From contig NKIW01000003.1 in the NCBI GenBank assembly GCA_002256205.1, positions 310,001 to 374,000 of the forward strand: 64,000 bases of DNA, written 5' to 3'. Positions 32,404 to 56,798 of the stretch are shown here, in pieces; within the stretch, counting starts at the first letter, position 1, and each line of letters opens with the position of its first letter. The notes below the pieces were generated by a model. It saw nothing but the letters and a program-made list of their open reading frames with translations, ran no database searches and had not been told where the DNA came from. The DNA is from Rhizobiales bacterium PAR1 (lineage in GTDB: Bacteria; Pseudomonadota; Alphaproteobacteria; Rhizobiales; Beijerinckiaceae). Both the position numbers and the translations under genes were made by a program.

Positions 32404-35400
32404 ATGGCAGGCACCGCAGGTTCACCCCAGAAAACCGTCTGGAATTTCTGGGTCGATCGTGGCGGCACCTTCACCGATATCGTTGGCTGTGATCCCTCCG
32501 GAAAGCTTCACGCAAAAAAGCTGCTCTCGGAAAATCCAGGCGTCTATCGCGATGCCGCCGTGCAGGGCATCCGCGAGCTTCTCGGTCTTGAAACAGGAGC
32601 GCCGATCCCCGTGGGCCTCGTCGGCGAGGTGCGCATGGGCACCACCGTCGCGACCAACGCACTGCTGGAGCGCAAGGGCGAACGAACGGTGCTGATCACC
32701 ACACGCGGTTTCCGCGATGCGCTCGAACTCGGCTATCAGGCGCGGCCCGATATTTTTGCGCGGGAAATCATCAAGCCGGAGCTTCTCTACGCCGAGACGG
32801 TGGAGATCATCGAGCGTATCCGCACCGATGGCACCATCGAAACCCCGCTCGACGACGCCGCTGCGCGTGAAGCGCTGGAGACCCTGAGGGCAAAGGGCGT
32901 CACCGCCATCGCCATCGCCTTCATGCACGCCTACCGCTATCCCGCGCATGAAAAACGCGTCGCGGCCATTGCCCGCGGCATGGGCTTCGCGCAGGTCTCG
33001 GTGAGCCATGAGGTCTCACCGCTGATCAAGCTCGTCGGACGCGGCGACACCACCGTGGTCGATGCATACCTCTCGCCGATCCTCGCGCGCTACGTGACGC
33101 AAGTCTCGGAGGAACTGGATGTCGCGCGGACGAAAATCCGGCTGATGTTCATGATGTCCTCGGGCGGGCTGACGGCGGCGGAGCTGTTTCAGGGCAAGGA
33201 TGCGATCCTCTCCGGCCCGGCGGGTGGGGTAGTGGCGCTGGCGGAAACCGGTAAATCCGCCGGGTTTTCCCGCGTGATCGGTTTTGATATGGGCGGTACC
33301 TCGACCGATGTCGCGCATTTTGACGGCACCTTCGAACGCGCCTTCGAGACCGAGGTCGCGGGCGTCCGGATGCGTGCGCCGATGATGCGCATCCACACTG
33401 TCGCGGCAGGCGGCGGCTCGATCCTGCATTTTGATGGTTCGCGGATGCGCGTCGGGCCGGATAGCGCCGGCGCAAGCCCCGGCCCGGCCTGCTACCGCAA
33501 TGGCGGCCCGCTCGCCGTAACGGATGCGAATGTCATGGTAGGCAAGCTCAATCCGGCCTTCTTTCCCGCGATTTTCGGCGCAAGGCGCGATGAGCCGCTC
33601 GATGTTGCGGCTGTCCAGATGAAGTTCGCGGATTTCGCCAAAGCCATTCCGGGTAAATCGGCGGAGGAAATCGCCGATGGTTTCATCGCCATCGCGGTGA
33701 TGAACATGGCCAACGCGATCAAGAAGATCTCGGTCGAGCGCGGCTATGACGTGACGCGCTATGCCCTCAACTGCTTCGGTGGCGCAGGCGGTCAGCATGC
33801 TTGCCTCGTGGCCGATCATCTCGGCATGACCGAAATCCTTGTTCACCCCTATTCGGGCCTGCTCTCGGCCTATGGCATGGGCCTCGCCTCGATCCGCTCG
33901 ACGCGGCAGATGGCGACAGAGGCGCCGCTCGCGGGTGATGTCGCGGCGCTTGTTGCCCGGGCTGAAGCCGGCATTGGTGAGGAGGCGGTTCGGGAGGTGG
34001 AAAGGCAGGGCGTTCCCCGTGCCGGCATCCGCCTCGTGACAGACCTTCATGTGCGTTATGCCGGTACGGATAGCCCCATCGCGATCACATGGCTGTCAGG
34101 CGATGATGCACAGGCCTTGCGCGCGCGCTTCGAGATGGCGCACCGCGCTCGTTTTGGCTTCACGGATCGTGCCAAAGCCGTCGTCATCGAGGCGATCTCG
34201 GTGGAAGCCATTGGCGGCGGCACCGGCTTCGAGGAGCCTTCCTTTGCGGCGCCCGAAACCACACCTGCCCCACGCCACAGCACGCGGTTTTTCTCGCACG
34301 GAGCATGGCAGGAGGCGGGCGTATATCTCCGCGCCGATCTCGCGCCCGGCGCGCGTTTTAACGGGCCGGCGATCCTGATCGAACCCAATCAGACCATTGT
34401 CGTCGAGCCGGGCTGGGAGGCACGCGTCACGGCGAAGGATCACATCGTGCTCAGGCGCTGTGAGGTTTTGCGGCGCACCAAGGCGGTCGGCACCGAGGCA
34501 GACCCGATCCTGCTGGAGATTTTCAATAATCTCTTCATGTCGATCGCCGAGCAGATGGGCGTGGCACTCCAGAACACGGCCTATTCGGTCAACATCAAGG
34601 AGCGGCTGGATTTCTCCTGCGCCGTGTTTGACCGGCACGCGCGCCTTGTCGCCAATGCGCCGCACATGCCGGTGCATCTCGGCTCGATGGATCGTTCGGT
34701 CGAGAGCATCATTCGGGCAAACGTGCTGGTAGCAGGAGATGCCTCCCAACGTAGCGCGAATGCGCGTCCGAGCTTATGCGAGGGAGCCGCCGCCAAAGGC
34801 GGCAAGGGAATAAAACCGGGCGATGTCTATGCCATCAACGCACCCTATAACGGCGGCACGCATCTGCCGGATATCACGGTCTGTACGCCCGTGTTCGATG
34901 CCAAGGGCGAGAACCTCCTGTTCTGGGTCGCCTCGCGCGGCCATCACGCCGACATCGGGGGGATTGCACCGGGCTCGATGTCGCCGCTCGCGACCAATAT
35001 CGAGGAGGAGGGGGTCTATATCGACAACTTCAAGCTCGTCGATCAGGGCGCGTTCCGCGAAGAGGCGCTGGTGAAGCTGCTGACTTCGGCGAAATATCCC
35101 GTCCGCAACGTCATCCAGAACGTCAATGATCTCAAGGCGCAGATCGCCGCAAATGCCAAGGGCGTCGCCGAACTCGAAAAGATGATCGAGAACTTCGGCC
35201 TCGATGTCGTGCAGGCCTATATGGGCCATGTGCAGGATAACGCGGCGGAGAGCGTGGCCCGCGTGATCGCGAAACTCCACGATTCCAGCTTCGACTACGA
35301 AATGGACCAAGGCTGCCGGATCAAGGTGAAGATCACAGTGGACCGCGAAAAGCGCGAGGCCACGGTCGATTTCACCGGAACCTCGCCCCAGCGGAGTGAC

Positions 35401-36105
35401 AACTTCAATGCGCCTGAACCGGTGACGCGCGCCGCCGTGCTCTATGCCTTCCGCGTGATGGTGGAGGATATGATCCCCATGAACGCGGGCTGCCTTCGTC
35501 CGGTGAAAATCATTGTGCCGGAGGGCTCGATGCTCTCGCCAAAGTACCCGGCGGCGGTGGTCGCGGGGAATGTCGAAGTGTCACAGGCGGTCACGAATTG
35601 CCTTTTCGGCGCGCTCGGCGCGATGGCCGCCGCGCAAGGCACGATGAACAACCTCACCTTCGGCAACGACACCTACCAGTATTACGAGACGATCTGTTCC
35701 GGTTCGCCCGCAGGGCCGGGCTGGAACGGCACGCCGGGCGTGCATACCCACATGACCAACTCGCGCCTGACGGACCCGGAAATCCTCGAACTCCGCTTCC
35801 CCGTCGTGCTGGAAGATTTCCACATCCGCCGCGGTTCGGGCGGGGCGGGCAAGTGGAAGGGCGGCGATGGCACGCTCCGCCGCATCCGCTTCCTTGAACG
35901 GATGGAATGCGCGCTACTCTCCGGCCATCGCCGCGTGGCACCCTTCGGGCTTGCGGGCGGCGCGGCGGGGCAGGTGGGTGTCAACAGCGTCCGGCGGCTT
36001 TCAGGCGTGATCGAGACGCTCGGCGGCTGCGATCAGACCGTGCTCGAGGCGGGCGAGGCGATCGTCATCCAGACCCCGACACCGGGCGGATACGGGGCGG
36101 CGTGA
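32404..36105 (+). CDS. Fused hydantoinase/5-oxoprolinase (HyuA-HyuB, ATP-dependent 5-oxoprolinase-like)
   Basis: 1233-residue fusion as in eukaryotic-type 5-oxoprolinase. Residues about 14-690 are the HyuA/ATPase half ([58 protein letters not shown]). Residues about 700-1233 are HyuB ([31 protein letters not shown], the HxD-type region [10 protein letters not shown], and [16 protein letters not shown]). It opens the lactam ring of 5-oxoproline, or a related hydantoin, using ATP, in the cytoplasm. Odd feature: about 26 extra residues (777-802) precede IKPGDVY, where relatives run straight on; this looks like an inserted palindromic element kept in frame. The stop is three bases from the convergent oxygenase stop. 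Confidence 0.92.
34732..34809 (+). repeat. Palindromic insert within the 5-oxoprolinase gene
   Basis: About 78 bases coding for [18 protein letters not shown] and then a Gly/Lys/Ala stretch, in a place where the family normally has only a short linker before KPGDVY. Nested inverted repeats are visible: GCGC-GAAT-GCGC (34754-34765), GCCGCC/GGCGGC around AAA (34789-34803), and CTCCC/GGGAG spanning the first half. The residues are low in hydrophobics and unlike the surrounding enzyme. It resembles palindromic intragenic elements known in other alphaproteobacteria; boundaries are approximate. Confidence 0.55.
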
Positions 36106-40037: not shown

Positions 40038-40114
40038 CGGGGCATAGCGCAGCCTGGTAGCGCGATAGTTTTGGGTACTATAGGTCGTTGGTTCGAATCC
40101 AGCTGCCCCGACCA
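40038..40114 (+). tRNA. tRNA-Pro (anticodon TGG)
   Basis: 77-base cloverleaf: acceptor CGGGGCA/TGCCCCG, D arm GCGC/GCGC, anticodon stem ATAGT/ACTAT with loop TTTGGGT (TGG), T arm GTTGG/CCAGC with TTCGAAT, discriminator A and an encoded CCA. Confidence 0.97.
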
Positions 40115-40615: not shown

Positions 40616-40692
40616 GGCCCCTTAGCTCAGCTGGATAGAGCACGTGCCTTCTAAGCATGAGGTCGCAGGTTCGAACCCTGCAGGGGTCGCCA
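40616..40692 (+). tRNA. tRNA-Arg (anticodon TCT)
   Basis: 77-base cloverleaf: acceptor GGCCCCT/AGGGGTC, D arm GCTC/GAGC, anticodon stem CGTGC/GCATG with loop CTTCTAA (TCT), T arm GCAGG/CCTGC, discriminator G and encoded CCA. Confidence 0.97.
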
Positions 40693-56465: not shown

Positions 56466-56541
56466 TGGCTCCTCGAGCTGGACTCGAACCAGCGACCATT
56501 CGATTAACAGTCGAACGCTCTACCAACTGAGCTATCGAGGA
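56466..56541 (-). tRNA. tRNA-Asn (anticodon GTT)
   Basis: 76-base cloverleaf on the minus strand: acceptor TCCTCGA/TCGAGGA, D arm GCTC/GAGC, anticodon stem TTCGA/TCGAA with loop CTGTTAA (GTT), T arm GCTGG/CCAGC, discriminator G and encoded CCA. Confidence 0.97.
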
Positions 56542-56724: not shown

Positions 56725-56798
56725 GGCCTCGTGGCGGAGTGGTGACGCAGAGGACTGCAAATCCTTGTACGGGGGTTCGATTCCCTCCGAGGCCTCCA
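56725..56798 (+). tRNA. tRNA-Cys (anticodon GCA)
   Basis: 74-base cloverleaf: acceptor GGCCTCG/CGAGGCC, short D arm, anticodon stem AGGA/TCCT within a loop CTGCAAA (GCA), T arm CGGGG.../CCCTC with TTCGATT, discriminator T and encoded CCA. Confidence 0.96.

Follow-up and report, generated by a model that had tools for sequence, protein, structure and literature searches.

The oxoprolinase gene and its insert

The window, by which we mean the whole 64,000-nucleotide stretch analysed here, contains a fused HyuA-HyuB gene in the source genome (G000), with extra codons forming short hairpins inside its HyuB half. The features discussed below all lie on the forward strand:

32404..36105, +, fused HyuA-HyuB gene of the oxoprolinase/hydantoinase type, 1233 aa, open reading frame carrying the insert
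34732..34812, +, inserted stretch, 81 nt = 27 codons, residues 777-803, from codon comparison with 13 empty congeners
34735..34746, +, hairpin A, GGAG ATGC CTCC, short in the window copy and longer and variable in many other copies, from the sequence and the folds of other copies
34748..34786, +, match to the family covariance model R1, 50 bits
34749..34785, +, 37 nt identical to the intergenic copy G000:C15:148172-148208, from sequence comparison
34754..34765, +, hairpin B, GCGC GAAT GCGC, a helix identified by covariation
34768..34783, +, hairpin C, CCGAGC TTAT GCGAGG, the conserved core motif, with GA opposite GA inside the stem, from the sequence and the model
34786..34803, +, hairpin D, GCCGCC GCCAAA GGCGGC, a variable 3' hairpin, from the sequence and folds

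The 1233-residue product has the Pfam domains Hydant_A_N, Hydantoinase_A, Hydant_A_C and, at residues 700-1232, Hydantoinase_B. Counting the source genome, the gene is present in 16 of the 17 genomes of the genus. Its dN/dS was 0.105-0.178 over five congener pairs, which indicates purifying selection, so the gene is not obviously decaying. In G008 (G008:C12:53263-56882) it is split over several overlapping open frames, which we read as a pseudogene or as assembly errors. Elsewhere the window has four tRNA genes, at 40038-40111, 40616-40689, 56469-56541 and 56725-56795.

A sequence-only reading of this DNA had described 26 additional residues (777-802) in the 5-oxoprolinase gene, at a place where the family has a very short linker, and had taken them for a mobile palindromic element. 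The residues are read in the open frame exactly as described, and comparison bears out the short linker. The insert is missing from 13 of the 15 congeners with the gene, all 13 of which read IIxxNxxIxxGD; the out-of-genus homologues compared have no insert; and the alignment with the solved structure 6yra chain B crosses the place with a short linker. The alignment with close relatives thus showed the extra residues to be absent from most homologues. The other two congeners with the gene, G004 and G010, also carry a palindromic insert at this codon, one that differs from that of the window gene. As for size, the net excess over the empty congeners is 27 codons (81 nt), one codon above the 26 first described, with ends (about 34732-34812) uncertain by a few bases. 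Since 81 is a multiple of three and the stretch is open in frame, the short linker gained 27 residues without disruption of the gene.

The deviant composition that had been proposed applies to codon usage, for which 3 of 1156 comparison windows are as atypical (GC3 0.58 versus 0.77), and not to G+C, which is ordinary at 0.667 versus 0.636, with 66% of gene windows deviating equally. Likewise, the nested inverted repeats resolve into four short hairpins that stand side by side rather than strictly nested. Folding energy is weak proof of structure here, because the insert alone hardly beats shuffled sequences: positions 34732-34809 gave a z-score of -1.5 (17 of 200 shuffles equally good), positions 34740-34815 gave -2.2 (3 of 200), and the reverse strand gave -0.5. 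Covariation across copies was therefore used in its place.

A repeat with a two-hairpin core

A search of the source genome for the repeated unit returned copies far beyond chance, so the insert has both further copies and palindromic relatives. BLAST found 40 places at E<=10, 24 of them below E 0.1, and 23 of these 24, the window copy included, cover the core. Exact matches to the 16-mer CCGAGCTTATGCGAGG number 19, and its reversed control has none; allowing up to 2 mismatches raises the counts to 31 and 5, so that some of the 31 may be chance. We built the covariance model R1 from 49 copies, 16 of them rows from the source genome, and scored a maximum of 150 candidates per genome. At E<=0.05 the source genome has 30 matches, and the counts over the 17 genus genomes span 0 to 43. 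The match of the window copy (L045) to R1 is by construction, as this copy is among the 49 rows. Its 37-nt identity with the intergenic copy on C15 stands out from the other copies: among the 29 compared with it, the runner-up shares a run of 22 nt. The weak folding z-score would agree with a simple expansion of the loop in this lineage, its palindromes arising by chance; the 30 genomic matches and the exact 37-nt paralogue contradict this reading, to which we give practically no credence.

The layout of the repeat is a variable hairpin A, a short linker, a covarying hairpin B, a conserved hairpin C and a variable hairpin D. Hairpins B and C make up its core, and the sequence of C is CCGAGC-TTAT-GCGAGG. 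The covariation was measured on 149 distinct exact-core sequences taken without selection for pairing. Hairpin B cells were paired in 79%, versus 61% in shuffles and 21-55% when the alignment was slid, and there were 115 double changes versus 52 in shuffles; neither value was reached by any of 500 shuffles, and all four pairs are formed in 99 of the 149. The 49-row alignment (A1) gave 98% versus 86% paired and 40 versus 15 double changes, the 98% being inflated because these rows were handpicked, mostly for full hairpin-B pairing. Hairpin C is invariant among the 149 because the copies were picked by it. It is the covariation of hairpin B across copies that makes the pairing within the insert convincing.

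The outer hairpins are less uniform. An upstream stem of at least 7 bp is present in 10 of the 19 exact copies in the source genome (3 of 19 at a shifted control) and in 71 of the 114 copies listed from named records (26 of 114 at the control). Downstream, a hairpin is enriched in the source genome's own copies (8 of 19 versus 5) and in those of relatives (29 of 50 versus 17), and shows no enrichment in the listed named records (26 of 114 versus 30 of 114 at the control). Hairpin B has variants, GAGC-GAAC-GCGA or the shorter GGAGC-GAA-GCGA, in L033, L038, L092, L094, L105, L114 and other loci, and these place GA opposite GA, as hairpin C does. Tandem copies spaced by 75-91 bp, resembling REP clusters, were seen in three congeners (G013:C17:670274-670509, G013:C13:698280-698393, G016:C221:2672-2801 and G015:C13:883610-883728).

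Beyond the genus, the repeat is patchy yet widespread in Alphaproteobacteria. The exact 16-mer was found in 12 of 31 genomes (the source and 30 relatives); in a draw of 385 genomes from the class, source included, 8 have it. A scan of named genomes returned at least 118 stretches, mostly Sphingomonadales by title; the matches listed also include Asticcacaulis, Beijerinckiaceae, Rhodoblastus, Rhabdaerophilum and others, and a few, such as Oscillospiraceae, are probably chance. Twelve further carriers, picked for having a match (by name, ten Sphingomonadales, one Caulobacterales and one Rhodoblastus), have 1 to 30 matches to R1 per genome at E<=0.001. The sphingomonad copies (L118, L123, L183 and others) have a longer common 3' half, AAAGCCAAG-hairpin-GCCCGGCGCTTGAGGG. 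With one sphingomonad copy as the query, 7 plasmid records matched, all of Sphingobium and 0.95-1.01 Mb in size, and phage records gave 0 matches. No Rfam model overlapped a copy at E<=1 in 20 loci of the source genome and 6 sphingomonad loci, nor was there a match to the window copy at the gathering threshold. Neither the exact 16-mer nor a description of the repeat was found in the open-licence papers searched, and publication elsewhere is possible. The repeat family therefore appears to be uncatalogued, in line with the earlier suggestion that a unit repeated in the genome would define a new family.

The same suggestion had such a family as intragenic. We examined 70 loci, namely the 30 matches to R1 of the source genome and, mostly best-scoring, 20 of 29 from G008 and 20 of 43 from G016. 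A crude codon-usage gene caller could place 67 of the 70 core matches (L054, L302 and L313 dropped out) and put 9 inside open reading frames, 2 of these in the source genome and 7 in G008 and G016. One of the nine, L319, was set aside for its low score and antisense strand, and by eye seven further calls were 5' extensions ahead of the real start or antisense frames. This leaves the window copy as the sole convincing intragenic case among the 67, so it is exceptional, and 'intragenic repeat family' is the wrong name for a repeat that is almost wholly extragenic. The remaining 58 were called intergenic, 9 of them overlapping the end of a called frame (seven at its called start); 30 lie between tandem genes (19 ++ and 11 --), 24 between convergent genes and 4 between divergent genes.

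Some copies are found near the same neighbours. Copies L035/L091, L049/L305 and L102/L103/L109/L113-L115 lie upstream of what seem to be the same genes in different species, which suggests that some positions are old or were repeatedly hit. The genes downstream of recurrent copies we take, from their protein starts, to be surE, ffh and accD. Two copies of the source genome, L010 and L020, lie within about 30 and 115 bases of an RNase P RNA gene and an ffh sRNA match.

These positions bear on whether the repeat is instead a structured RNA, such as a UTR regulator or a protein-binding site, selected at many genes and with one copy strayed into a gene. A covarying helix, few copies between divergent genes and copies that recur next to seemingly the same neighbours in several species would all suit such an RNA. 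Against it are the mixed orientation to the tandem genes and the uneven occurrence already described, both in the R1 counts within the genus and in the few genomes of the class with the exact 16-mer. We regard this possibility as a secondary one of rather low probability; it is compatible with a REP-like repeat and does not exclude it.

Filled and empty sites and two inserts at one codon

The nearest paralogue of the insert also has filled and empty orthologous sites. At the C15 intergenic site, the source genome has about 80 nt that include the element. The corresponding space is 0 to a few nt long in G003, G004, G005, G006, G007 and G010 and measures about 27 nt, likewise free of the element, in G009. 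Inspection by eye showed two copies in G008, a single diverged copy in each of G001 and G014, and other palindromic sequences in further congeners. These states imply a clean gain or loss at an intergenic site too, where palindromic elements of different kinds seem to gather. In L344 (G016:C307:5320-5770), where the source genome has the repeat, there is a CGTC-type REP-like pair (CGTCATGCCCGCC...GGCGGGTATCCA). From the filled and empty sites we infer that the repeat is mobile. A search for Y1_Tnp, the domain of the usual REP mobiliser, found it in none of the 17 genus genomes, of which 15 are 90% complete or more. Among 12 other carriers, 2 have the domain, with no match to R1 at either Y1 locus. 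No target duplication was recognised.

The insert of G004 and G010 begins at the same codon as that of the source genome. It is 30 residues long and contains the hairpin-B sequence GCCCGAACGGGCG in the same register and orientation, without hairpin C. Its R1 score is 13.1 bits, no better than background matches in the same loci. Sites resembling hairpin B occur twice within this insert or at its edge, a number reached or exceeded when the locus was shuffled in 5 of 200 trials, and the G007 locus has none. The family link of this insert rests on the hairpin-B sequence, the register and the palindromes; its weak score would suit a degenerate copy as well as some other palindromic element.

The phylogeny does not group the three carriers. 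A clade of G000, G004 and G010 was rejected (p-AU 2e-63), the group having been named after the inserts were seen, and a clade of G004 and G010 was not (p 0.22). In the best tree the insert-free G007 is nested between G004 and G010 (a starred branch), an arrangement that calls for a third gain or for one or more clean losses; this tree needs three changes, as did an earlier tree of 21 rows. The difference between the palindromic inserts at this codon and the separate placement of their carriers make two hits on the site probable. Two separate gains, perhaps with one loss in G007, are the simplest reading of these sequences. Alternatively, an insertion could be ancestral and lost many times. 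The shared codon, register and orientation of the hairpin-B sequence and the clean loss or third gain implied by G007 speak for this. On the other hand, rejection of the single clade means that many clean losses would be needed; the source copy is identical over 37 of 37 nt to a paralogue in its own genome, and the insert of G004 and G010 lacks hairpin C and scores 13 bits. An ancestral insertion is improbable compared with separate gains in the source genome and in the line of G004 and G010.

Overall, the insert is very probably one copy of a REP-like repeat that landed in frame in the oxoprolinase gene and was tolerated. What was observed, and what this reading is based on, is repetition, conserved pairing, filled and empty sites, an intact frame and purifying selection. 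The earlier idea of a mobile palindromic element is thus retained, the element being repeated, in frame and missing from most homologues, with its likeness to Rickettsia elements confined to the in-frame insertion. Ordinarily the repeat sits outside genes, flanked by a tandem or convergent pair. In the source lineage, a copy close to G000:C15:148172 would have been copied into the HyuB half of the gene, presumably as a single-stranded hairpin moved by an activity acting in trans, and would be tolerated through its likely location in a surface loop.

Relation to known repeats

REPs are among the closest known repeats. They lie between tandem or convergent genes and rarely between divergent ones; some are reported inside ORFs, where more than half of the inserts are dimers or groups encoding 20-30 residues; and in recB of two Xanthomonas species different REPs stand at about the same site, according to PMC3733652. 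The repeat described here has the traits of a REP in the broad sense, being multicopy, short, palindromic and mainly extragenic, in a tandem or convergent setting. The in-frame presence of such a repeat in an enzyme gene is real, and intragenic REPs are already on record (PMC3733652).

One alternative is a classic GTAG-type REP, once spread by a RAYT (TnpA-REP) transposase that the genus has since lost. Its extragenic, short, palindromic form and its gene setting agree with this, as does subtype ii, (C/G/T)TAG-GAGC-GAAC-GCGA, which resembles the Pseudomonas GTAGGAGCG REPs. Nevertheless, the scarcity of Y1_Tnp, and the absence of the repeat from the two Y1 loci found, argue against it, and GTAG occurs near hairpin B in 3 of 19 own copies, 2 of 50 copies of relatives and 1 of 114 listed named-record sequences. 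We consider a GTAG origin unlikely.

A Rickettsia palindromic element (RPE) or a CGTC repeat would also have an alphaproteobacterial host and could give an in-frame insert of 27 residues; in PMC3733652, intragenic CGTC REPs are reported, RPE-4 and RPE-6 are equated with CGTC repeats, and no transposase is associated with these. But CGTC was seen near hairpin B in none of the 19 own copies and none of the 50 of relatives (11 of 114 listed named-record sequences), the stem, loop and tail features given in that source do not fit by eye, nearly no copies are intragenic, and the CGTC-like pair in L344 occurs separately in the genus. With the CGTC tag of RPE-4 and RPE-6 missing and the copies almost wholly extragenic, the suggested likeness to Rickettsia palindromic elements is not supported beyond the in-frame insertion, and this origin is very unlikely. 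By the features tested, the repeat is neither a GTAG REP nor a Rickettsia RPE.

We thus document a structurally conserved, apparently uncatalogued repeat common to several alphaproteobacterial orders, and a clean natural case of a repeat turned into part of a protein. The filled and empty sites in one genus, together with a near-identical paralogue, offer a handle on how REP-like sequences move without RAYT, and also allow one to ask how noncoding repeats turn into protein sequence. The probably separate, in-frame hits at the same codon of the oxoprolinase gene in two lineages invite the more speculative view, for now a doubtful one, of a third large REP-like class in Alphaproteobacteria, distinct from both GTAG and CGTC repeats and moved by a site-targeting activity other than RAYT.

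In comparison with known systems, the repeat is like GTAG REPs in being short, multicopy, hairpin-forming and extragenic, in tandem or convergent settings, with intragenic cases known for those REPs as well (PMC3733652). It is unlike them in having no conserved GTAG tag, no Y1_Tnp found in the genus and a core of two hairpins, of which a 16-nt one is conserved, with variable hairpins often lying to either side. Like CGTC repeats (including Rickettsia RPE-4 and RPE-6 and Neisseria dRS3), as PMC3733652 presents them, it is common in Alphaproteobacteria, had no transposase found in association with it and has an in-frame intragenic copy. Unlike them, the source genome's copies and those of relatives lack the CGTC tag, and the A-T stem start and CCA-like tail described in that source were not seen in an inspection by eye, which also took in the TGTC/CCTC variants. 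As with Rickettsia RPE-1, an in-frame insertion lengthens a protein; RPEs, however, are described as recurrent within genes (PMC3733652) versus 1 in 67 here, and it is by description that we set the repeat apart from them. Finally, the inserts of the source genome and of G004 and G010 resemble the recB REPs of Xanthomonas in being different inserts at about the same site (PMC3733652), in another gene and with other repeats.
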